From IMG/VR virus record IMGVR_UViG_3300032286_000717, positions 1 through 21,098 of that record: a stretch of DNA of 21,098 nt; one strand, 5' to 3'. This DNA is from a virus. Shown here one piece after another: positions 2,760 through 10,317 of this stretch. Positions within the stretch are counted from its first letter, which is position 1, and each line of letters opens with the position of its first letter. Under the pieces are notes generated by a model. That model saw only the letters and a program-made list of their open reading frames with translations. It made no database searches and was not told where the DNA came from. The position numbers and the translations under genes were made by a program.

Positions 2760-3038
2760 TTACACCCCCTCTGGTGGAAACTCAAAGTAGTCGAACATGG
2801 CGTCGATCACGTGTGCTAGCAACTCAAGCTGCTCCCACCACTCAGCGTCGCCCACATTGTCGTACCTACTCCAACGCGTCATGTCGTACTTGTCTAGCAC
2901 GCCGTTGATCGGGCCGAAGGTCTGGCCCAACTCATTGAATATATCCACCGCCATCTCTGGCGTGAGGGCCGTGTCTCCGCTGTCAGATACAAAGTGCATC
3001 ACCGCAGCGGCCTTGGCCGAATCGCTTACTTTTTTCAT
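2760..3038 (-). CDS. Small acidic unknown phage protein
   Basis: This is a 92-residue protein starting MKKVSDSAKAAAVMHFVSDS. It is acidic and rich in aromatics (WSRYDN, AEWWEQLELL, FDYFEFPPEGV). The helical, negatively charged C-terminal half could mimic nucleic acid or bind a protein, but that is only a possibility. AAGGAGAAATGA precedes the ATG. The gene follows the metallopeptidase after a 57-bp gap containing a strong hairpin (3062-3084). Confidence 0.75.
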   Translation of the reverse strand: MKKVSDSAKAAAVMHFVSDSGDTALTPEMAVDIFNELGQTFGPINGVLDKYDMTRWSRYDNVGDAEWWEQLELLAHVIDAMFDYFEFPPEGV

Positions 3039-3095: not shown

Positions 3096-4229
3096 TTAAG
3101 CGGCGTAGGACTGGTCGAATATCACGGCCAGCACAGCCGTGGCGTCATACGTTGCACTGTTCTTGAGCGCAGTGGCAAGCACCTGCGCGTCAATCTTGTT
3201 GCGGTCGATCAGGCGCTCGGCCATCTCCGGGTCTTCAGGCCACACGGACTCGCACATCAGCTCGATGAGCCACTGCTTGGAGCCCGCCTGCGCATCGTAC
3301 AAAGCCTCCTGAAGCTCGATGGTGTACGAGTCATAGTCCCACTCGTTCGCATCATCAAGGTAATACTGCTTGGCCCCTGCGCTTGAGCCAGCAGAATTGA
3401 CACCCGTCAGAGACGCGTCACTGTACGCACCCCACCTGCCCCAGTCTAGGTACTCAACCACCGTCGGGTCACGGTCAGTGGGCAAGCTGTCCCAGTCGAG
3501 CAGTGCCGCACGCTCGGCCAGCGCTTGGAAGTGGATGATGTCGAGCGACTCCTTGTCGCTGTGCTCGGCGTAGTAGCCCACGCTGATGTTGGTGCACTCG
3601 GGGATGATGTCAATGAACTCGGCCGTGTCGGTGTACACGCCTGTACTGTCGGGCAGATACATCAGGGTATCGTCCGCATTGAGCGCGGCACTGAGCGCAT
3701 CGGCAAACGCATCAGAGCAACAACGGCCCCGGCCTTGGTGCGTGATGACGCTGTCGATACCCCGTCGGTCAAACGCAATGGCCCGGTCGAACTCAGAGAG
3801 ACGTTCTCTCTCGTGCTTGGCAAGCCACGTAGCACCGATACCGCCGCACTCCTCACCTTGCGTGAAGATGTAGTAAGCAGACACACCTGAGTACAGCAGG
3901 TGCATGAGCATCGCAACGCCCGCGCCATCGTCCGCCCCCAAAGCTGCACCGTCAGCGTACCAGTAGGTCGGTGTCTGCTTGATCTTGTTGGGGCCTTCCT
4001 TGCGGTGCACCGTGTCAACGTGCGCAACGAACAGCGTCCGGTTGGATGCGTTCAGGCGTGTGTCAACGTGCAGGTTACCCGCACCGTCACGCCCGACTAT
4101 GGCGTTGGGTAGCTTCTTGACGCGTTCCTCCAGCCAGTCAGTCATGCGGCGTGTGCCCTCGCTGTCATGTGGGCGCATCATCGAGAGCGCACGGGCTAGG
4201 GTCTTGTACAGAATAGTTGATTTGTTCAT
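3096..4229 (-). CDS. Clan MH (M20/M28-like) zinc metallopeptidase
   Basis: This is a 377-residue protein, probably an aminopeptidase-like di-zinc hydrolase of the M20/M28/M42 superfamily. Visible in order: HVDTVH (H70, D72; first zinc ligand and catalytic-site Asp), LGADDGAGVA (D100/D101, bridging Asp), TQGEECGG (E126 base, E127 ligand), AFDRRG (D154 ligand) and a terminal EHSDKE (H223 ligand). All expected ligands are present, so the enzyme is predicted to be active. Residues about 250-377 are an acidic extension of unknown role. There is no signal peptide, so it should act in the cytoplasm. The start at 4227-4229 is chosen for GGAGAAACATCC upstream; the frame is open to 4286 but overlaps the preceding gene. 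It follows the 498-residue gene by 13 bp. The substrate is unknown. Confidence 0.88.
   Translation of the reverse strand: MNKSTILYKTLARALSMMRPHDSEGTRRMTDWLEERVKKLPNAIVGRDGAGNLHVDTRLNASNRTLFVAHVDTVHRKEGPNKIKQTPTYWYADGAALGADDGAGVAMLMHLLYSGVSAYYIFTQGEECGGIGATWLAKHERERLSEFDRAIAFDRRGIDSVITHQGRGRCCSDAFADALSAALNADDTLMYLPDSTGVYTDTAEFIDIIPECTNISVGYYAEHSDKESLDIIHFQALAERAALLDWDSLPTDRDPTVVEYLDWGRWGAYSDASLTGVNSAGSSAGAKQYYLDDANEWDYDSYTIELQEALYDAQAGSKQWLIELMCESVWPEDPEMAERLIDRNKIDAQVLATALKNSATYDATAVLAVIFDQSYAA
3795..3811. repeat. AGAGAG/CTCTCT palindrome, copy 1 (inside metallopeptidase gene)
   Basis: AGAGAGACGTTCTCTCT: 7-bp arms around a 3-nt centre. It lies within the coding sequence and encodes part of an Arg/Glu/Leu/Ser stretch. 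Confidence 0.75.
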
Positions 4230-4242
4230 GGATGTTTCTCCT

Positions 4243-5739
4243 TCAGTTGGTTTCGGTTGGGCCTGTGACGTGGGGAGTCCACACACATTCGGCTACTGTC
4301 TCGACCGCAAGGTCTAACTCTTCTTGCGCTGACTCAGGCGCATTGTCCGGGTGGTACGTCTCACCGTCTACCTCTACGCTGTCCTCGTCATCGGTGTACC
4401 ACTTGCCGGACTCAGTGCACTGCCAGCAGTCATCGGTCAGCTCATACTGTCTGGTGTCCTCGGCGTAGCAGATGTCATCGTCATCGACGTGGTAGTACGT
4501 ATCTTGCGACTCGATGTACACAGCGTTGTCACTGTGCGTGTAGTCGCCGCTATGCAGCTCAACGATGTCGTTGTCAGACAGGTACTCGCTGTCGTACCAG
4601 TCACTCTCTTGCGTCTGCACTGCGTTGTCGTTGTGGACGTAGTAATCGTGACGTCTGCGGCCCTGCACCCTCTGGTAGTTGTCGATACAGCACTGGCCGA
4701 CACGACTGTCACCGTGGTAGCCGACATGGTAGGAGTCATCCTCGTCCATGCCTTCACCGCAGTCCTCGCAGGTACAGGTGTGGCCGTTGAGCATACCGCT
4801 CGTGCTGGCCGCCTCCCATCCGTTGTACTGTGAGATGTGGAACGTGTCATCCTCCTCGACAACGTGCTGACTGCTGCCGTCAATGTAGGGCATCAAGAAC
4901 CCACCACCACGGCGCAGTGGGTAGCGCATGATGTGTATGTGGTCAGGCCAGCCGCGCCACTTGGCATAACCCAAGCCCTTCAAGTATGCCTCGATGGCCT
5001 CGTCAGTACCTGAGTGCGATGAGTACTCCCGCTCTCGTTTGTATGAGCGCACAAACCCTTTGTCGCCATCCTCGCTCACATGCACAAGGCAGCGCCCCAA
5101 CACCATGCCATCAGTGTCAGTACGCACAGCCATACCCCAGCCAAGAGACGGGTCGTACACCTCGTAAGGATGGCGCTCCTCCCTGTCATCGCACAGCAGG
5201 TCGAAGCTCGAACTCATACATGAGCGAGGCCCGTGGATGACCGCATGCACCATCTTGTCCATGTCCTTGGTGATGGTGGTCGAGCCGCCGTAGGTGTACT
5301 GTGCAACGACGTCACGGATAAGGTTGGATGGCGCATCAGGGAAGTGACGCGTCAAGTACTTACCGATGGTTGTCACGACAGCTTTGATGTCGCTGTCCCC
5401 GTTGTGCATGGCGGACTGCTCGTTGCGTGTGTAGGCCAAGCGGTTGGGGTCAGTGATGGCTTTGTGTGGCCACTCAAGCAGCAACTGTTGCCAGTTATCA
5501 GGCTTGTACTTGTGTGTGGTCATGATGTCATACACAGCAGGGTGCAGTTGATGACGCTGGCGCTGTTGCTTGAACCAAGGCCGACCTGCGTAAGTCTCGC
5601 GCCACTCACGGCGGAAGGTGCGAGGCCCCGTGGGGATCATGACCGACTCGTGCGCACCATCGGATACGAGGTATGCGGCTTTCATAAACAAGTTGTCTGC
5701 GAAGTCAAAGGCTTCGCTAAGTGTGTTCCATGTAGGCAT
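4243..5739 (-). CDS. Large unknown early protein with Cys cluster and degenerate tandem repeats
   Basis: This is a 498-residue protein starting MPTWNTLSEAFDFADNLFMK. Residues about 165-290 hold a module with GPRSCMSS (171-178), HPYEVYDPSLGWGMAV (190-205) and GRCLV, a layout seen in unnamed phage proteins. Residues 322-351 (CTCEDC, then GQCC) look like a zinc-binding treble clef. Residues about 365-465 are five or six degenerate 16-19-residue units around Tyr, paired Asp and a hydrophobic residue (DNAVYIESQDTYYHVDDDD is one). A CWQC pair at 438-441 suggests decayed zinc-ribbon repeats. The start follows a GGAGAAAGCAAA site whose upstream sequence is duplicated before the gene at 6942-7178. Strongly acidic C-terminal half. 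I do not know its function. Confidence 0.85.
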   Translation of the reverse strand: MPTWNTLSEAFDFADNLFMKAAYLVSDGAHESVMIPTGPRTFRREWRETYAGRPWFKQQRQRHQLHPAVYDIMTTHKYKPDNWQQLLLEWPHKAITDPNRLAYTRNEQSAMHNGDSDIKAVVTTIGKYLTRHFPDAPSNLIRDVVAQYTYGGSTTITKDMDKMVHAVIHGPRSCMSSSFDLLCDDREERHPYEVYDPSLGWGMAVRTDTDGMVLGRCLVHVSEDGDKGFVRSYKREREYSSHSGTDEAIEAYLKGLGYAKWRGWPDHIHIMRYPLRRGGGFLMPYIDGSSQHVVEEDDTFHISQYNGWEAASTSGMLNGHTCTCEDCGEGMDEDDSYHVGYHGDSRVGQCCIDNYQRVQGRRRHDYYVHNDNAVQTQESDWYDSEYLSDNDIVELHSGDYTHSDNAVYIESQDTYYHVDDDDICYAEDTRQYELTDDCWQCTESGKWYTDDEDSVEVDGETYHPDNAPESAQEELDLAVETVAECVWTPHVTGPTETN

Positions 5740-5740
5740 T

Positions 5741-5761
5741 TTGCTTTCTCCAGTTTCAGAT
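5741..5761 (-). repeat. Duplicated 21-bp leader with ribosome binding site, copy 1
   Basis: The 21 bases just before the start of the 498-residue gene are identical to 7179-7199. They include the GGAGAAAG ribosome binding site. Both copies stand at the end of a longer untranslated stretch that also carries an AGAGAG palindrome and a hairpin. Confidence 0.85.
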
Positions 5762-5771
5762 TTTAGGAAAC

Positions 5772-5802
5772 GATGGGTATACCGGTATGGCCGCCACCCA
5801 TC
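5772..5802. other. Intergenic hairpin with nested palindrome
   Basis: GATGGGT (5772-5778) pairs with ACCCATC (5796-5802). The loop contains the 10-bp palindrome ATACCGGTAT (5779-5788). It lies between the AGAGAG palindrome at 5811 and the leader of the 498-residue gene. Confidence 0.5.
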
Positions 5803-5810
5803 AAGGCGTC

Positions 5811-5826
5811 AGAGAGAACTCTCTCT
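5811..5826. repeat. AGAGAG/CTCTCT palindrome, copy 2 (just after a stop codon)
   Basis: AGAGAGAACTCTCTCT. It lies 4 bp past the stop of the gene at 5831-6058, at the start of the untranslated region before the 498-residue gene. Confidence 0.8.
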
Positions 5827-5830
5827 AGAT

Positions 5831-6058
5831 TCACTCAACAACTACTGTCCACCCCATCGCCTCGATGACACGCTTGAGGGATGGGTCGGGCGCAAAGCCA
5901 ACGATGAGCGTTGCAATGCGGTCTTTCTTGTTGATACGCACCATCGTCATGGAGCGAGGCACCATCCACACACCGCCATCATTGACGGTGTCGAACATGT
6001 TGCGTGTCCACTGCACGGCATTCTTCATGCCTGCCTTGGTGTTGATGTCGTAGTTCAT
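5831..6058 (-). CDS. Small unknown phage protein
   Basis: This is a 75-residue protein starting MNYDINTKAGMKNAVQWTRN. The pattern of strand and helix (GGVWMVPRSMTMVRINKKD, RIATLIVGFAPDPSLKRVIE, AMGWTVVVE) suggests a compact alpha/beta fold with a conserved-looking GW-VVVE end. AAAGGATC precedes the ATG, which overlaps the preceding stop as ATGA. It is the last of a six-gene ATGA chain starting at 7178; an AGAGAG palindrome follows 4 bp after its stop. Function unknown. Confidence 0.77.
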   Translation of the reverse strand: MNYDINTKAGMKNAVQWTRNMFDTVNDGGVWMVPRSMTMVRINKKDRIATLIVGFAPDPSLKRVIEAMGWTVVVE

Positions 6059-6297
6059 TTGCGTGATCCTTTCTTCTTTGGTAATGTGAATGTGCCGAGG
6101 TACTCAGCACCATCGACTAGAGGGCAGTACATCTTGATGTCGTACCCTGTGGTGTGCGACACAGGCACAAGGAACAGGGCGTAGGTGTACCCGTCCTTGT
6201 CCATCAGGTCGAGCAGTGCGGGCAAGTCTCGCGTGTCATCGGTCGTTGCCCATTGCGCTACGCTTGATGCGTAGAAGTGGAAGTCTTTGTCTTTCAT
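6055..6297 (-). CDS. Small unknown phage protein
   Basis: This is an 80-residue protein starting MKDKDFHFYASSVAQWATTD. It has a helical, acidic first half (DLPALLDLMDKDG), a strand-rich middle (YTYALFLVPV, YDIKMYCPLV) and a Lys-rich end (TLPKKKGSRK). GGAG lies upstream, and both ends are ATGA overlaps (6294-6297, 6055-6058), so translation is coupled. The alternation resembles a small single-domain modulator, but no family is recognised. Confidence 0.77.
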   Translation of the reverse strand: MKDKDFHFYASSVAQWATTDDTRDLPALLDLMDKDGYTYALFLVPVSHTTGYDIKMYCPLVDGAEYLGTFTLPKKKGSRK

Positions 6298-6506
6298 TCC
6301 ATGTCTCCTTGGTTGAGTTTGTTGATGCGGTGCTGGCGGTAGAACTTGCAGAACAAGTCATCGAACGCTGTGATCAGGCGCTCTTTGTTGGTGGTGTCTG
6401 CTACGTAGAACGCACGGGCGATGTGCCCTGCGAAGCTACCGCCCTCATCCTCCATGGTCAGCGCCGCTGATAACAGCATGTCGTGGTCTAAATCCATTGC
6501 ACTCAT
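6294..6506 (-). CDS. Small unknown phage protein
   Basis: This is a 70-residue protein starting MSAMDLDHDMLLSAALTMED. It appears all helical, with AGHIARAFYVAD and LITAFDDLFCKFYRQHR forming amphipathic helices. GGAGAAACGAA precedes the ATG. ATGA overlaps join it to both neighbours (6503-6506, 6294-6297). Function unknown. Confidence 0.77.
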   Translation of the reverse strand: MSAMDLDHDMLLSAALTMEDEGGSFAGHIARAFYVADTTNKERLITAFDDLFCKFYRQHRINKLNQGDME

Positions 6507-6718
6507 TTCGTTTCTCCTTCGGTTACCAATACGTTGTCACGCCAGTCGTTCAGGTCAGAGAGAACTTTCTCTCTCGACCCTTTGAAGCCCATCATCTTGA
6601 GCGTTGAGTAGGCCGTTGGCCCACGGGATTTGCTCATGCCTAACATCTCCAGCTTGAGCATCTGGCGCAGGGTTAAGAGGCGAGCCGCCTCGATCTGGTG
6701 TCCGGTCAGTGTTGTCAT
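6503..6718 (-). CDS. Small unknown phage protein, helical
   Basis: This is a 71-residue protein starting MTTLTGHQIEAARLLTLRQM. Its first part (IEAARLLTLRQMLKLEMLGM) has the spacing of a helix-turn-helix, followed by KSRGPTAYSTLKMMGFKGSR, which could be a second helix pair; the DNA-binding reading is tentative. There is no strong ribosome binding site, so translation probably depends on termination of the preceding gene at the ATGA (6715-6718). An AGAGAG palindrome (6557-6574) lies within the coding sequence. Confidence 0.72.
   Translation of the reverse strand: MTTLTGHQIEAARLLTLRQMLKLEMLGMSKSRGPTAYSTLKMMGFKGSREKVLSDLNDWRDNVLVTEGETK
6557..6574. repeat. AGAGAG/CTCTCT palindrome, copy 3 (inside a small gene)
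   Basis: AGAGAGAACTTTCTCTCT: perfect 8-bp arms with a 2-nt centre, the longest form in the set. It lies inside the gene at 6503-6718. Confidence 0.8.
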
Positions 6719-6945
6719 GGCTTGCTCACTTTCACAATTGGTTCACGGTAGTGCGTCTCAATCACCTCTGAGATAAAGACTTGGTGGTGCACGTTGACGG
6801 TCTCATTTATCCAAGCACGTGACACGTTGTGTGCGTGCTCCAGACAATTAACGGTGCACGACTTCACGATGTGCTCCTGTCTTTGCTCTTGCCCCCAGTC
6901 GGGCTTTGATGCGTCGATCAGGGTGACGATGTACGTAGTTCTCAT
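6715..6945 (-). CDS. Small unknown phage protein
   Basis: This is a 76-residue protein starting MRTTYIVTLIDASKPDWGQE. A strand opening (TYIVTLIDA), a central helix and a strand end (HHQVFISEVIETHYREPIV) indicate an alpha/beta fold. The frame is open to 7302, but the ATG at 6943-6945 is chosen because GGAGAAAGCAA precedes it and it overlaps the preceding stop as ATGA. The same Shine-Dalgarno sequence is used before 7178, 5739 and, on the plus strand, 9603. Function unknown. Confidence 0.75.
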   Translation of the reverse strand: MRTTYIVTLIDASKPDWGQEQRQEHIVKSCTVNCLEHAHNVSRAWINETVNVHHQVFISEVIETHYREPIVKVSKP

Positions 6946-7178
6946 TTGCTTTCTCCGTTGTGTTTGAATTTCAGTGGCAGGTAGTTGTTGGCAAGTGCGC
7001 TCCACTTGGACAACAGCACGCCGTAGCGTGGGTCGGGTTTGTTCCATGCGTTCAGTCCCGGCTTGGTGTGGTTGAACACAAGCTCCGCCTCTCGTTGGTT
7101 GCTTGTGATGAGCACGATGGAGTTCATCCCACAAGGCGTGTACAGGCTGTCCGCCCGGTCTACTCGGTAGTCGTTCAT
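6942..7178 (-). CDS. Small unknown phage protein, head of a six-gene coupled chain
   Basis: This is a 78-residue protein starting MNDYRVDRADSLYTPCGMNS. It is mixed alpha/beta, with NSIVLITSNQREAELVFNHT at the core. It is preceded by the 21-bp duplicated leader with GGAGAAAG and begins the six-gene ATGA-linked chain ending at 5831. A longer upstream frame (to 7390) in a different register runs into the gene at 7275-8042 and is not used. Function unknown. Confidence 0.75.
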   Translation of the reverse strand: MNDYRVDRADSLYTPCGMNSIVLITSNQREAELVFNHTKPGLNAWNKPDPRYGVLLSKWSALANNYLPLKFKHNGESK

Positions 7179-7199
7179 TTGCTTTCTCCAGTTTCAGAT
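7179..7199 (-). repeat. Duplicated 21-bp leader with ribosome binding site, copy 2
   Basis: Identical to 5741-5761. In both cases the order in the transcript is stop codon, AGAGAG palindrome, hairpin, this leader, start codon. Confidence 0.85.
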
Positions 7200-7221
7200 G
7201 CCGCCCTTTGAAGGTAGGCTC

Positions 7222-7247
7222 CACCATGCGGGCGGCGTTGCATGGTG
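7222..7247. other. Intergenic hairpin, perfect 8-bp stem
   Basis: CACCATGC (7222-7229) pairs with GCATGGTG (7240-7247) around a 10-nt loop. A competing pair is possible between CCGCCC (7201-7206) and GGGCGG (7230-7235). It lies between the palindrome at 7256 and the duplicated leader. Confidence 0.55.
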
Positions 7248-7255
7248 AAGTTGTC

Positions 7256-7271
7256 AGAGAGATTTCTCTCT
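7256..7271. repeat. AGAGAG/CTCTCT palindrome, copy 4 (just after a stop codon)
   Basis: AGAGAGATTTCTCTCT, 3 bp past the stop of the gene at 7275-8042. Confidence 0.8.
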
Positions 7272-7274
7272 GGA

Positions 7275-8042
7275 TTAAAGAATGTTGAGTAGGCCTGTCC
7301 ATCGGGCAGGCAGGGGCATCGTTGGTTTGAGGTTGTCCATTGCAAGGTAGGCACGTTGCAAGTCCATCTCTCGCACATCCAGTGCGGCAATCGCTTCCGG
7401 GGTGGTTGCGATACGGCGCTCTACGTCGATGTCGTCTTTCGCTTTATTCATCTGGCCCACAAGAAATGAGCGTTGGATGGTGTGGACGTCCGGGGATACG
7501 CGCCGCTCGAACGGGACTTTGCGTTTGCCTCGGGCTGGATTGGGTGTGGCCTCGAACAGGTCACGCACATAGCGCTTTTGCGCAGCATCTACGTAATCCG
7601 TCCAGTGTTCGCCGTTGTTAGGGATGTCCCACCCCTTTTTCTCCTTAACGAAGGTAACGAACTGCCCCGGTGCGAACGTGCCTTTCTTTTGCACCTTGAC
7701 CAGATCGGCGATCACTTCAACGAGCACGTCCTCGTATTCACACAGCGCCCTGTACTTGGCCATCGTCCCCACGTTGCCGAACTCAGCGTCTGCTTGGCGT
7801 TTGGCTTGAGACTTCATGGTGCGCACACCGCCTAGCTCAATCCTTGCGGCGGATAAGATGTCGTCCCACAGTTGGTGCGATACGGTGGTCTTGATTTTCA
7901 GCTTGCGTTGCCGAGCTTTGGTCAGTTTCACAGCTTGCAAGATGTCGCGTATCACAGGTACAGGGTATTTTTGCGCACGCAGGTGGCGCTCCAAACGGGG
8001 CGTGCTCATGACCAACCAAGCGGGTTGAATGTTTTCTTCCAT
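7275..8042 (-). CDS. Unknown basic 255-residue phage protein
   Basis: This is a 255-residue, largely helical, Lys/Arg-rich protein starting MEENIQPAWLVMSTPRLERH. Features are a basic helix (AVKLTKARQRKLKIKTTV), a middle region with WDDILSAARIELGG, an aromatic patch (KKGWDIPNNGEHWTDYVDAA) and a C-terminal helix. The frame is open to 8132, but AAGGAG lies 8-9 nt before the ATG at 8040-8042. It is the first gene after the 389-bp gene-free region, so it probably has its own promoter. Charge suggests DNA or RNA binding, and its place beside an origin-like region would suit that, but this is inference. No family is recognised. Confidence 0.8.
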   Translation of the reverse strand: MEENIQPAWLVMSTPRLERHLRAQKYPVPVIRDILQAVKLTKARQRKLKIKTTVSHQLWDDILSAARIELGGVRTMKSQAKRQADAEFGNVGTMAKYRALCEYEDVLVEVIADLVKVQKKGTFAPGQFVTFVKEKKGWDIPNNGEHWTDYVDAAQKRYVRDLFEATPNPARGKRKVPFERRVSPDVHTIQRSFLVGQMNKAKDDIDVERRIATTPEAIAALDVREMDLQRAYLAMDNLKPTMPLPARWTGLLNIL

Positions 8043-8085
8043 ACTTTTACTCCTTAAAATAACAAATTGTACAGTGTTTGTCGGG

Positions 8086-8125
8086 ACTGTCCTAATTCTT
8101 TCACACATTAACGCTAAACGTGGAC
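8086..8125 (-). repeat. Left arm of 40-nt inverted repeat
   Basis: Read on the minus strand it begins GTCCACG and ends AGGACAGT. It matches 8361-8400 at 33 of 40 positions with no gaps, including an unbroken GTGTGAAAG. Confidence 0.85.
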
Positions 8126-8327
8126 GGGCCATTGCACCCTCGCAGGCCGCATGAATGCTAGGTTTCTAGGTTTCACTGAGTACCAGTGACCACTTCTTCC
8201 TACCAAAATAAAAAGAGAGCACGCTTCACTTTTAATTTTATATATGTGTGTATATGTACCAACATATAAAACAAATTCTCCTTCTCTATATGTATATAAA
8301 TATATATAGAAGAAGAGGACAGTTTTG

Positions 8328-8357
8328 CGCAAACCCACGCAACCATGCGGGTTTGCG
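8328..8357. other. Hairpin within the gene-free region
   Basis: CGCAAACCC (8328-8336) and GGGTTTGCG (8349-8357) form a perfect 9-bp stem around a 12-nt loop. No T-run follows on either strand, so it is not a standard terminator. Confidence 0.6.
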
Positions 8358-8360
8358 GCC

Positions 8361-8400
8361 GTCCACGCTTTGCTTTAAGGTGTGAAAGTAAAAGGACAGT
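8361..8400 (+). repeat. Right arm of 40-nt inverted repeat
   Basis: Same sequence family as 8086-8125 in the opposite orientation, 235 bp apart. Shared cores are GTCCACG, GTGTGAAAG and AGGACAGT. Confidence 0.85.
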
Positions 8401-8416
8401 TCGGACACTGTTTTTT

Positions 8417-8432
8417 AGAGAGAATTCTCTCT
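8417..8432. repeat. AGAGAG/CTCTCT palindrome, copy 5 (overlaps a stop codon)
   Basis: AGAGAGAATTCTCTCT, a perfect 16-bp palindrome. Its last base is also the last base of the stop codon of the gene at 8432-8659. Confidence 0.82.
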
Positions 8433-8659
8433 CAGATGCCGTTCATGGCGCGTTGCTGGCGTATGTTGACCTCATGCCAGAGCTGTGCGACTGAGGCGCA
8501 AGGGATGCTGATGGTCGTGCCTACCATGCTCACAGTATGGATGGTGTAGTTTTTATCCTTCTTGCCGTTGGGGTAGTAGGTTTGGGCGCACCAGAGTGCG
8601 CCTGCTTGGTCACGCCATTGGGTGATGGTTTCGATGGTGGGTTGTTTGGTGTTACGCAT
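8432..8659 (-). CDS. Small unknown phage protein
   Basis: This is a 75-residue protein starting MRNTKQPTIETITQWRDQAG. WCAQTYYPNGKKDKNYTIHT followed by VSMVGTTISIPCAS looks like a beta-rich core, and the end (VAQLWHEVNIRQQRAMNGI) is helical. The frame is open to 8761, but GGAGAAACTTCC directly before the ATG at 8657-8659 decides the start. About 140 bp of untranslated sequence with another AGAGAG palindrome precedes it. Function unknown. Confidence 0.75.
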   Translation of the reverse strand: MRNTKQPTIETITQWRDQAGALWCAQTYYPNGKKDKNYTIHTVSMVGTTISIPCASVAQLWHEVNIRQQRAMNGI

Positions 8660-8770
8660 GGAAGTTTCTCCGAAGGGCACGCTGGCTAGGCGTGGGGTTG
8701 TGTTGTGCCGTAGGCAAACGCCGTTAGACACGGTGGGTAACAACGGGCCAGCCAAGCCCATTGGGATTCG

Positions 8771-8786
8771 AGAGAGAAATCTCTCT
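8771..8786. repeat. AGAGAG/CTCTCT palindrome, copy 6 (after a stop codon)
   Basis: AGAGAGAAATCTCTCT, the exact reverse complement of copy 4. It lies 15 bp past the stop of the gene at 8802-9224. Confidence 0.8.
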
Positions 8787-8801
8787 GAGAAGCATTCGCA
8801 T

Positions 8802-9224
8802 TTACAGTGAACGCAACACGGTCAGGGCTTGCTTGATTTGTTCATCGAGGGACTCGCCCTCGAAGTTGGCCAAGAAGTCCATCGCCGCACTACGCAAGAC
8901 GGGGCTTATGCGCTTGGCGCTTGCGGGTGCGGCATCCTTGGGCTCAGGGCGAACAACCATGTACCGAAAGTCTGCGCTTGCGCGGTCAATGGCTTTGACG
9001 TGCTCAGGGTTTGCACCAGCGCCTTTGCCCTCAGAGAGAATTCTCTCTACGCCTTTGAAGCCTTGGCCCTCAAGGTGGCCAAGCATCCAACGATGGCGAA
9101 GGTCTTTGCGTTGCTCAGGGGTTGCGCCTACGTAGGCCACATGGAAAGGGTCAGCGGCTTCACGCACCTTGCGTGTAGCGGAACCGATGTTGAAGGCGTA
9201 TTGTTGAATGGTCAGTTTTGACAT
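8802..9224 (-). CDS. Unknown 140-residue phage protein
   Basis: This is a 140-residue protein starting MSKLTIQQYAFNIGSATRKV. GATPEQRKDLRHRWMLGHLE, an AIDRASADFRYMVVRPE motif and the helical tail DEQIKQALTVLRSL are visible. The DFRY-VVR type motif recurs in small phage hypotheticals I have seen, without an assigned role. The frame runs to 9275, but GGAGAAAATCC before the ATG at 9222-9224 decides the start. An AGAGAG palindrome (9033-9048) lies inside the gene and another follows it. It lies within the first genes after the promoter at 9455-9483 and so is probably expressed early. Confidence 0.78.
   Translation of the reverse strand: MSKLTIQQYAFNIGSATRKVREAADPFHVAYVGATPEQRKDLRHRWMLGHLEGQGFKGVERILSEGKGAGANPEHVKAIDRASADFRYMVVRPEPKDAAPASAKRISPVLRSAAMDFLANFEGESLDEQIKQALTVLRSL
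9033..9048. repeat. AGAGAG/CTCTCT palindrome, copy 7 (inside a gene)
   Basis: AGAGAGAATTCTCTCT, identical to copy 5, inside the gene at 8802-9224. Confidence 0.82.
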
Positions 9225-9264
9225 GGATTTTCTCCGTTGGGTTTGTGTCTTGCAAGGCCAATCC

Positions 9265-9432
9265 TCACTCGACAAACCCTAGTTTCCGGCAACCCTTGTT
9301 TGATCGCCACTCAGCCCCATTGTTTTCGAGGCACAAAGGCCACTTTCCGAGCCCCACCGTACCCCCATAGTCCCTTTTTGGAGCGTGGCACAGCTTCGTA
9401 GTACAACACTGTTCCCCAACCGCTCCCAGCAT
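9265..9432 (-). CDS. Possible small Cys-containing protein, first ORF after the early promoter
   Basis: This 55-residue open frame starts MLGAVGEQCCTTKLCHAPKR and continues through GKWPLCLENNGAEW and a KGCRKLG end. Five Cys and one His could bind a metal. It begins about 16 nt after the predicted transcription start and fills the space before the gene at 8802-9224. Against it, there is only a weak AGG 10-13 nt upstream, and an open frame of this length could arise by chance. No family is recognised. If it is not translated, the stretch 9225-9430 is an untranslated leader. Confidence 0.4.
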   Translation of the reverse strand: MLGAVGEQCCTTKLCHAPKRDYGGTVGLGKWPLCLENNGAEWRSNKGCRKLGFVE

Positions 9433-9696: not shown

Positions 9697-10317
9697 ATGT
9701 TAGACCACCTCCTTGACTTCGACCCTGAAGTCCTGCCTAAGTCACAAGCGCCATCTCCGGCAGAGACGACCGCACCTGTTGAACTTCTCAACGGCAAAAT
9801 CAGTACCAACGACTGGCTCAAGGAAATGGGCATACCTGACGCGCAAACCGCCGTCTCTGAGTTGGAAAAACAGCAGGCCCGTCAAACTTTCTCGGCGCTG
9901 ACAACGGCCTCTCCTATAAAAGAACAGCATGAACTGGTCTCCAAGATAGAGACCCCTGCGGCCGTGCGCCATCTTGTAGGGATGCTGACGGCCTACGACT
10001 GGGAGTTTGTGCACCAAGCCAAGGAGCTGCGCGGTTACGCCGTGGCCAAACTGGTCGAAGAGTGCGAAAGCCCCAACGCCAATATCCGCCTAAAAGCCCT
10101 CGGCCTTCTGGGCAAGGTCACGGAAGTTGGCCTGTTCACTGAGAAGATTGAGATTAAGAAGACCGACATGACGGAAGCTGAGATCGACCAGCGCCTCAAA
10201 GAGAAGCTGGCCAAGTTCATGGATGTCTCAGACGCCGACGTAACGGACCTCGTGGACATCGCCGAAGTCACCCCCACCCCAATCCAAGATGACGACGAAC
10301 CCACCACTGACGCCTGA
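9697..10317 (+). CDS. terS: Terminase small subunit-like protein
   Basis: This is a 206-residue protein starting MLDHLLDFDPEVLPKSQAPS. It is predicted to be helical, with an acidic, Pro/Thr-rich tail (TPTPIQDDDEPTTDA). The central segment (TAYDWEFVHQAKELRGYAVA followed by LKALGLLGKVTEVGLFTEKI) is the kind of sequence found in genes directly before terL in environmental phages. Small terminase subunits bind the packaging site and regulate TerL. The call rests mainly on position (its end overlaps terL by 29 bp) and on this pattern, since no canonical helix-turn-helix is obvious. The ribosome binding site (CAGGA) is modest. GTG/ATG alternatives nearby have none. Confidence 0.75.
   Translation: MLDHLLDFDPEVLPKSQAPSPAETTAPVELLNGKISTNDWLKEMGIPDAQTAVSELEKQQARQTFSALTTASPIKEQHELVSKIETPAAVRHLVGMLTAYDWEFVHQAKELRGYAVAKLVEECESPNANIRLKALGLLGKVTEVGLFTEKIEIKKTDMTEAEIDQRLKEKLAKFMDVSDADVTDLVDIAEVTPTPIQDDDEPTTDA

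Follow-up and report, generated by a model that had tools for sequence, protein, structure and literature searches.

A stretch of viral DNA of 21,098 bases (IMG/VR record IMGVR_UViG_3300032286_000717; hereafter, the window) was analyzed for seven dispersed palindromes. The window is a single partial virus record, within which alone copy density could be counted, and its layout pairs an early region running leftward with a block of terminase, portal, and capsid genes running rightward. The best overall explanation of the palindromes is that they are double-stranded DNA operators, very probably bound by a dimer of the protein encoded at 8802–9224 on the complementary strand, which would block the early operon. 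Sequence comparison of more than 100 related aquatic phages indicates that the sequence of this protein has changed in step with that of every one of its sites, much as happens between competing immunity groups.

Covariation of the palindromes with a putative early regulator

All seven copies of AGAGAG-N4–6-CTCTCT listed in an initial annotation of this DNA were recovered with correct coordinates, arms, and centres, and no further copy was present in the 21,098-base record. The comparison with shuffled sequence proposed there yielded no copy in 100 dinucleotide-preserving shuffles against seven in the window. All copies fall within 3795–9048, the rightward structural block contains none, and TC precedes five of the seven, as had been reported. 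The 6-bp arms and the centre of 4–6 nt are present as described; however, the element is better written with 7-bp arms and a centre of 2–4 nt (AGAGAGA-N2–4-TCTCTCT). The view that an element near stop codons is real, constrained, and unusual was borne out, and comparison with relatives proved to be the right proposal.

The terminase of the window showed 44–54% identity to those of Phage DSL-LC04, pelagiphages HTVC023P/027P, and cyanophage Pag-Yong1, and 80–93% identity to those of dozens of IMG/VR contigs; none of the GenBank phages was close by DNA. Relatives comprised 80 retrieved by terminase and 230 further contigs retrieved by five regulator alignments, from which a set of 107 unique loci, each spanning 3.5 kb or more, was used. 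Most terminase-retrieved contigs with an early region carried several palindromes with identical arms, and the arms varied from genome to genome; a relative usually had 3–8 palindromes in the same early region with arms of its own. The arm types included AGAGAGA, AGATAGA, GTGGGACA, GTGATACA, GTGGCACA, GTGAGAC, GGGGACA, GCGGACA, GCAGACA, GCTGACA, GTGGTCA, and GGGGGAAC, together with approximately 20 further arms. At least three same-arm palindromes were observed in 100 of the 107 unique loci and in none of 535 shuffles; the shuffles of window and relatives rule out chance or a simple repeat as the origin of the palindromes. In the longer relatives (47–68 kb), cognate sites occurred only in the same few kb beside the regulator. 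The initial annotation had named a lack of conservation at the same positions in relatives as evidence against its reading: the slots are kept (partly the same ones), whereas the sequence filling them is replaced genome-wide, so that conservation fails only in a literal sense.

When gene families were compared, only the product of 8802–9224 (−) sorted by arm type. This regulator, 140 amino acids (aa) long, is the product of the gene that opens the leftward operon and consists of a variable N-terminal domain (N-domain, approximately residues 1–95) and a common C-terminal two-helix tail. Identity in the N-domain predicted shared arms with an area under the curve (AUC) of 0.968, compared to 0.67 for TerL, 0.58 for the portal protein, 0.76 for the small-terminase candidate at 9697–10317, 0.73 for a 255-aa protein, and 0.71 for a 75-aa protein. 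In the terminase-only loci, a subset used so that retrieval could not favour the regulator, its AUC was 0.953 against 0.54–0.79 for the other proteins. Three other proteins considered as arm-reading factors were rejected: the 255-aa protein (AUC 0.69–0.73) and the 75-aa protein (0.54–0.71) did not track the arms, and the nearest-neighbour lists of the winged-helix-like protein at 750–1241 were not sorted by arm type. In most regulators with a mapped site set, one site lies upstream of the gene, usually by 33–50 bp, or in its 5′ part, and another lies 0–25 bp past its stop codon.

Members of the regulator family, which has not been described previously, are 120–150 residues long. At least five N-domain classes were distinguished, and alignments between them are poor, while variants of the tail (approximately 42 residues) are common to several of them: one tail cluster covers N-classes 1, 2, and 3, and another covers 1, 4, and 5. 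The tail therefore does not set specificity; our guess is that it serves assembly or contact with a partner. AlphaFold2 predicted an all-alpha structure for the window regulator (mean predicted local distance difference test score, pLDDT, 89) with helices at residues 6–15, 22–33, 36–53, 59–65, 73–91, 108–118, and 126–139, and a helix–helix–hairpin–helix arrangement for a class-2 protein (pLDDT 81). No significant sequence relative of the regulator was found in Pfam, PHROG, or PDB. In a fold comparison of the two models, no match reached Z ≥ 5; the fold is accordingly left unnamed and is not claimed to be new.

The correspondence was examined within class 2, where the half-site is GTG-N4-N5-AC (residue numbering follows locus L010). 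Of all alignment columns, residue 82 had the highest mutual information with the arm, and high values were also obtained for residues 85, 86, and 89, which share its helix face. Among genomes with G4, 19 of 22 had Asp or Glu82, whereas all 13 genomes with A4 lacked it; the same counts applied to Arg85. Lys86 accompanied G5 in 26 of 28 genomes, Met86 accompanied A5 or C5 in 4 of 4, and Gln86 accompanied T5 in 3 of 3. On a tree built without the covarying columns, base 4 changed approximately four times and base 5 approximately five times. Residue 86 changed to match in the GTGGCAC case, in two GTGGAAC lineages, and in the GTGATAC lineage; two GTGAGAC lineages carry different residues (Thr and Gln) in place of Arg85. 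The helix bearing residues 82, 85, 86, and 89 is thus a candidate recognition helix, with a code that would read two adjacent arm bases. Residues 37 and 41 also covary with the arm because their codons fall within the in-gene operator (G[G/D/E]TPC[P/I/A/S]T corresponds to site GTGGGACACCNTGTCCCAC and its variants), so that the DNA site dictates the protein sequence there.

Among cultured relatives, Planktothrix phage Pag-Yong1 (OL906435) carries a 187-aa putative regulator as its first leftward gene, and the same protein, at 100% identity, is present in MinM2 and Pra-JY27. Its C-terminus, KADKVAALVKAFKELSPAEQARFTATL, resembles the class-5 tail DPVKRLLKAYAELTGAEKRRFKSAL, a likeness judged by eye only. 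The Pag-Yong1 stretch contains 19 GGTTCA-N3-TGAACC sites and one with a 7-nt centre; several lie 3 bp past stop codons and approximately eight lie 18–23 bp ahead of start codons. A second Pag-Yong1 paralogue of the putative regulator, 39% identical, is encoded at L126:17306–17827 (−).

Proposed operator action and alternative explanations

Sites were intergenic in 54% of cases, compared to 21% of random positions, and approximately 45% lay within open reading frames (ORFs). Of the intergenic sites, 235 of 356 lay within 25 bp after a stop codon, and many lay 15–35 or approximately 70 bp ahead of the next start codon. The distance from site to next start showed a recurring peak at approximately 70–75 bp in every class, besides the 15–35 bp group.

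In the proposed mechanism, the regulator would be made early, its gene being the first in the leftward early operon, and its dimer would read a palindrome as two inverted half-sites, with the N-domain giving specificity and the short helical C-terminal tail being exchanged between specificity classes. It would occupy sites in its own gene, just past its own stop codon, at later junctions, and within genes over approximately 5.5 kb; once bound, it would most likely block RNA polymerase and shut down both the early operon and its own synthesis. A string of sites that runs along the early operon and starts in the regulator gene is best explained by elongation-stopping roadblocks that limit the regulator itself, and by analogy with the stoperators of Cluster A mycobacteriophages we infer such roadblock action here. 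Since a single protein has to fit every site in its genome, a change of specificity would begin with the protein, swapped or mutated, and the sites would be replaced afterwards.

The initial annotation had considered an RNA stem-loop at least as good an explanation as a DNA operator; the balance of evidence is now on the side of DNA. If the palindromes acted as RNA hairpins, in transcript termination, as a barrier to exonucleases, or as the target of an RNA-binding protein, the abutment of sites on stop codons would be accounted for, and so would the T-run that follows some of them in the sense orientation (83 of 669 sites, 12%, against 28 antisense), most often in class 5 (42 of 223, approximately 19%, against 6 antisense). 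T-runs are not typical of window-class sites (3 of 116 sense, 7 of 116 antisense), which lack the G+C-rich hairpin followed by a U-run of an intrinsic terminator. RNA helices should favour G·U pairs, yet the single-mismatch sites on the transcribed strand comprised 18 A·C and 12 G·U, counts that ignore shared descent, and thus carried no RNA signature. In several classes, symmetry extends to 1–2 nt from the dyad (GGGACAAC-N-GTTGTCCC; GGGACA-NN-TGTCCC), which leaves too little for a hairpin loop; 303–309 of approximately 670 sites lie within ORFs, and a helix face of the regulator covaries with the arm bases. Transitional genomes further contain hybrid sites that join half-sites of two specificities (GTGAGACA...TGTCCCAC; GTGAGACACCATGTCCCAC), and AGAGAG leftovers or hybrids stand beside a regulator of another class in loci L060, L062, L065/L264, L067, L189, and L191. 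Such hybrid sites, leftover old-type sites, and the shuffling of domains indicate half-sites in DNA, recognized by a dimer, rather than RNA hairpins. The reading of the palindromes as DNA operators is therefore strongly supported by sequence, and an RNA function in their place is highly unlikely; some sites, chiefly of class 5, may double as intrinsic terminators through their RNA. The orientation of the centres was biased, but it was not used as evidence, many centres being set by conserved codons or inherited.

The main rival, which we regard as unlikely, is an activator or promoter-linked regulator that would switch on middle genes through promoters located shortly after the sites. The many intergenic sites ahead of start codons would fit such a role, as would the TATAAT-like matches that 35 downstream sites have 12–30 bp past their centres. 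However, the intragenic sites fit it poorly, and most sites have no promoter-like match; in the window, three matches were found where 3.8 were expected from shuffles. Promoter-like sequences near the sites were generally weak and lineage-specific rather than general. Dispersed palindromes with a cognate protein also resemble centromere or iteron systems, and an AT-rich inverted-repeat element adjoins one of the window sites, as might be expected of partition, packaging, or replication sites for a ParB/KorB-like or initiator protein. The sites are nevertheless spread over 3–6 kb at gene junctions instead of being clustered, and no ParA-like or initiator family was detected among the window proteins tested, which makes this alternative most improbable as well.

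Under the operator reading, the many specificities among close relatives suggest diversifying selection, and the simplest form of that selection would be avoidance of shut-off by the protein of a co-infecting relative. In its many specificities and its exchange of the protein, the system resembles immunity groups, a likeness that would be surprising in phages without a sign of lysogeny. Phage_integrase, a single Pfam family, was not found in 8 long relatives, whose records may be incomplete, and neither the terminase nor the class-2 regulator revealed a prophage or host relative in 84,980 bacterial and archaeal genomes, in scans that find close relatives only. Since the likeness to immunity groups is accompanied by no integrase or prophage, mutual silencing of co-infecting phages is proposed. 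It may tentatively be suggested that these are apparently non-lysogenic aquatic phages with rapidly diversifying heteroimmunity, in which a protein of a new family with a swappable domain silences co-infectors of the same specificity while others escape, with more than 25 specificities and a readable code. If so, the specificity-group dynamics of temperate phages would extend to abundant, apparently purely lytic aquatic phages. The more than 100 matched protein–operator pairs form a natural data set for a recognition code, and the transitional genomes make the joint change of a regulator and all its sites testable.

Several points weigh against the operator reading. Besides the sense-biased T-runs, the centre of window-class sites varies by 2 nt, which is unusual for a rigid dimer, and none of the known DNA-binding folds is a confident match to those predicted for the N-domain, although a weak or absent match is no proof. 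Moreover, the absence of integrase rests on one Pfam family and 8 records of uncertain completeness.

Sites of the window and neighbouring elements

The seven putative operator sites of the window, to which no strand was assigned, lie at stop codons in four cases and within genes in three, as the initial annotation had stated. Site S1 (9033–9048; AGAGAGAATTCTCTCT) is inside the regulator gene. S2 (8771–8786; AGAGAGAAATCTCTCT) lies 15 bp past the regulator stop codon at 8802; the slot from −3 to +25 after this codon is filled at 115 sites of unique relatives. S3 (8417–8432; AGAGAGAATTCTCTCT) overlaps the stop of the 75-aa gene at 8432 by one base (−1 bp) and adjoins the AT-rich inverted-repeat element. 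S4 (7256–7271; AGAGAGATTTCTCTCT) lies 3 bp past the stop of the 255-aa gene at 7275, and S6 (5811–5826; AGAGAGAACTCTCTCT) lies 4 bp past the stop of gene 5831–6058. S5 (6557–6574; AGAGAGAACTTTCTCTCT) is within the 71-aa gene at 6503–6718, and S5-like AGAGAG-type leftovers with an identical N4 centre occur in the recombinant relatives L060, L189, and L191. S7 (3795–3811; AGAGAGACGTTCTCTCT) is within the peptidase gene at 3096–4229, which matches phrog_4191. The GTGATAC-type relative G004 has sites just past the regulator gene, past the 255-aa gene in the same slot as S4, and at the peptidase gene, where the equivalent of S7 lies just past the stop codon. The four sites at stop codons do mark breaks in the leftward gene chain; however, these are not the only breaks, as had been claimed, since the gap at 3038/3096 has no site. 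The genes to the left of 3096 are also without sites.

Upstream of the regulator, 9225–9400 (−) forms a putative leader or promoter region of its operon, the sequence of which is conserved in relatives and includes a G-rich GGGGGTRYRGTGGGG-like element. The sequence GGGGGTRYRGTGGGG precedes the regulator start by 118–249 bp (median 147) in 103 of 177 unique loci; examples are the window itself (approximately 9350–9400, about 150 bp before the regulator start) and loci L010, L007, L270, and L315. The class-5 leaders of L049 and L315 contain an intrinsic-terminator-like hairpin and T-run immediately before the ribosome-binding site of the regulator, which suggests attenuation or antitermination.

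The element at 8079–8407, adjoining S3, is a 120-bp AT-rich stretch (75% AT, compared to 45% AT for the record) within a 49-nt inverted repeat. AT-rich equivalents were located +415 to +785 past the regulator stop in L005, L006, L009, L010, L020, and L068, and inverted repeats could be confirmed in L010 and L020; the element looks like a replication origin. The 255-aa protein (7275–8042, −), present in 108 of 147 loci, is hypervariable (often 25–40% identity) between conserved neighbours and had no Pfam match. Further to the left of the operator region, a TGGGTTTGGCAGGGCCTGTG-like sequence occurs in three dispersed copies (1990–2009, 2343–2362, and 2727–2746, +) at small-gene junctions.

Comparison with known systems

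No paper on Pag-Yong1 or on such palindromes was found in the open-licence literature. The cI and Cro proteins of lambdoid phages read palindromic operators with a recognition helix and define immunity groups, and their operators are clustered at promoters. Here, by contrast, operators are dispersed downstream of the promoter and within genes, and no lysogeny module was found.

The start-associated sequences (SAS and ESAS) of Cluster K mycobacteriophages (PMC3203893) are likewise short repeats at the gene boundaries of one phage group, and ESAS include inverted repeats with a variable spacer. SAS are, however, asymmetric, tied to start codons, and without a known cognate protein, whereas the present sites tend to follow stop codons or are intragenic and are accompanied by a covarying protein. 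A fixed position at start codons does not apply to them, given the 235 of 356 intergenic sites after stops and the large intragenic share. Pag-Yong1, with its approximately eight sites 18–23 bp before starts, represents an intermediate case toward SAS and is the only one to show this.

The closest comparison is with Cluster A mycobacteriophages (L5, Bxb1, and TipsytheTRex), which carry operators and stoperators recognized by an immunity repressor, and for which a roadblock that stops elongation has been proposed (PMC6550527, PMC9283540). In both systems, numerous sites are scattered through the short intergenic spaces of transcription units, one of them near the regulator gene, with one phage protein per genome and specificity groups. 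The co-divergence of site consensus and regulator among relatives, tested here, is also common to both, and copies of one site run along transcription units mostly away from promoters. The Cluster A sites are 13 bp long, asymmetric, oriented with transcription, and number more than 20, whereas the present sites are palindromes with symmetric arms, usually 3–8 per genome. The Cluster A repressor is a monomer with two DNA-binding domains, while an apparent dimer logic and a 120–150-aa protein family with no relative detected are seen here. The L5-type repressor combines a helix-turn-helix and a stoperator domain; the present regulator gave no significant Pfam, PHROG, or PDB sequence match and no confident structural match, in comparisons that included no direct alignment to L5 Rep. 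Cluster A phages are temperate, and here there is no sign of lysogeny in records that may be incomplete. Because its sites are not the asymmetric 13-bp type, the system is placed outside the Cluster A family, as a new variant of the stoperator-type array. This stoperator-like array, whose site is palindromic and whose protein is apparently a different one, seems to have evolved separately from that of the mycobacteriophages.

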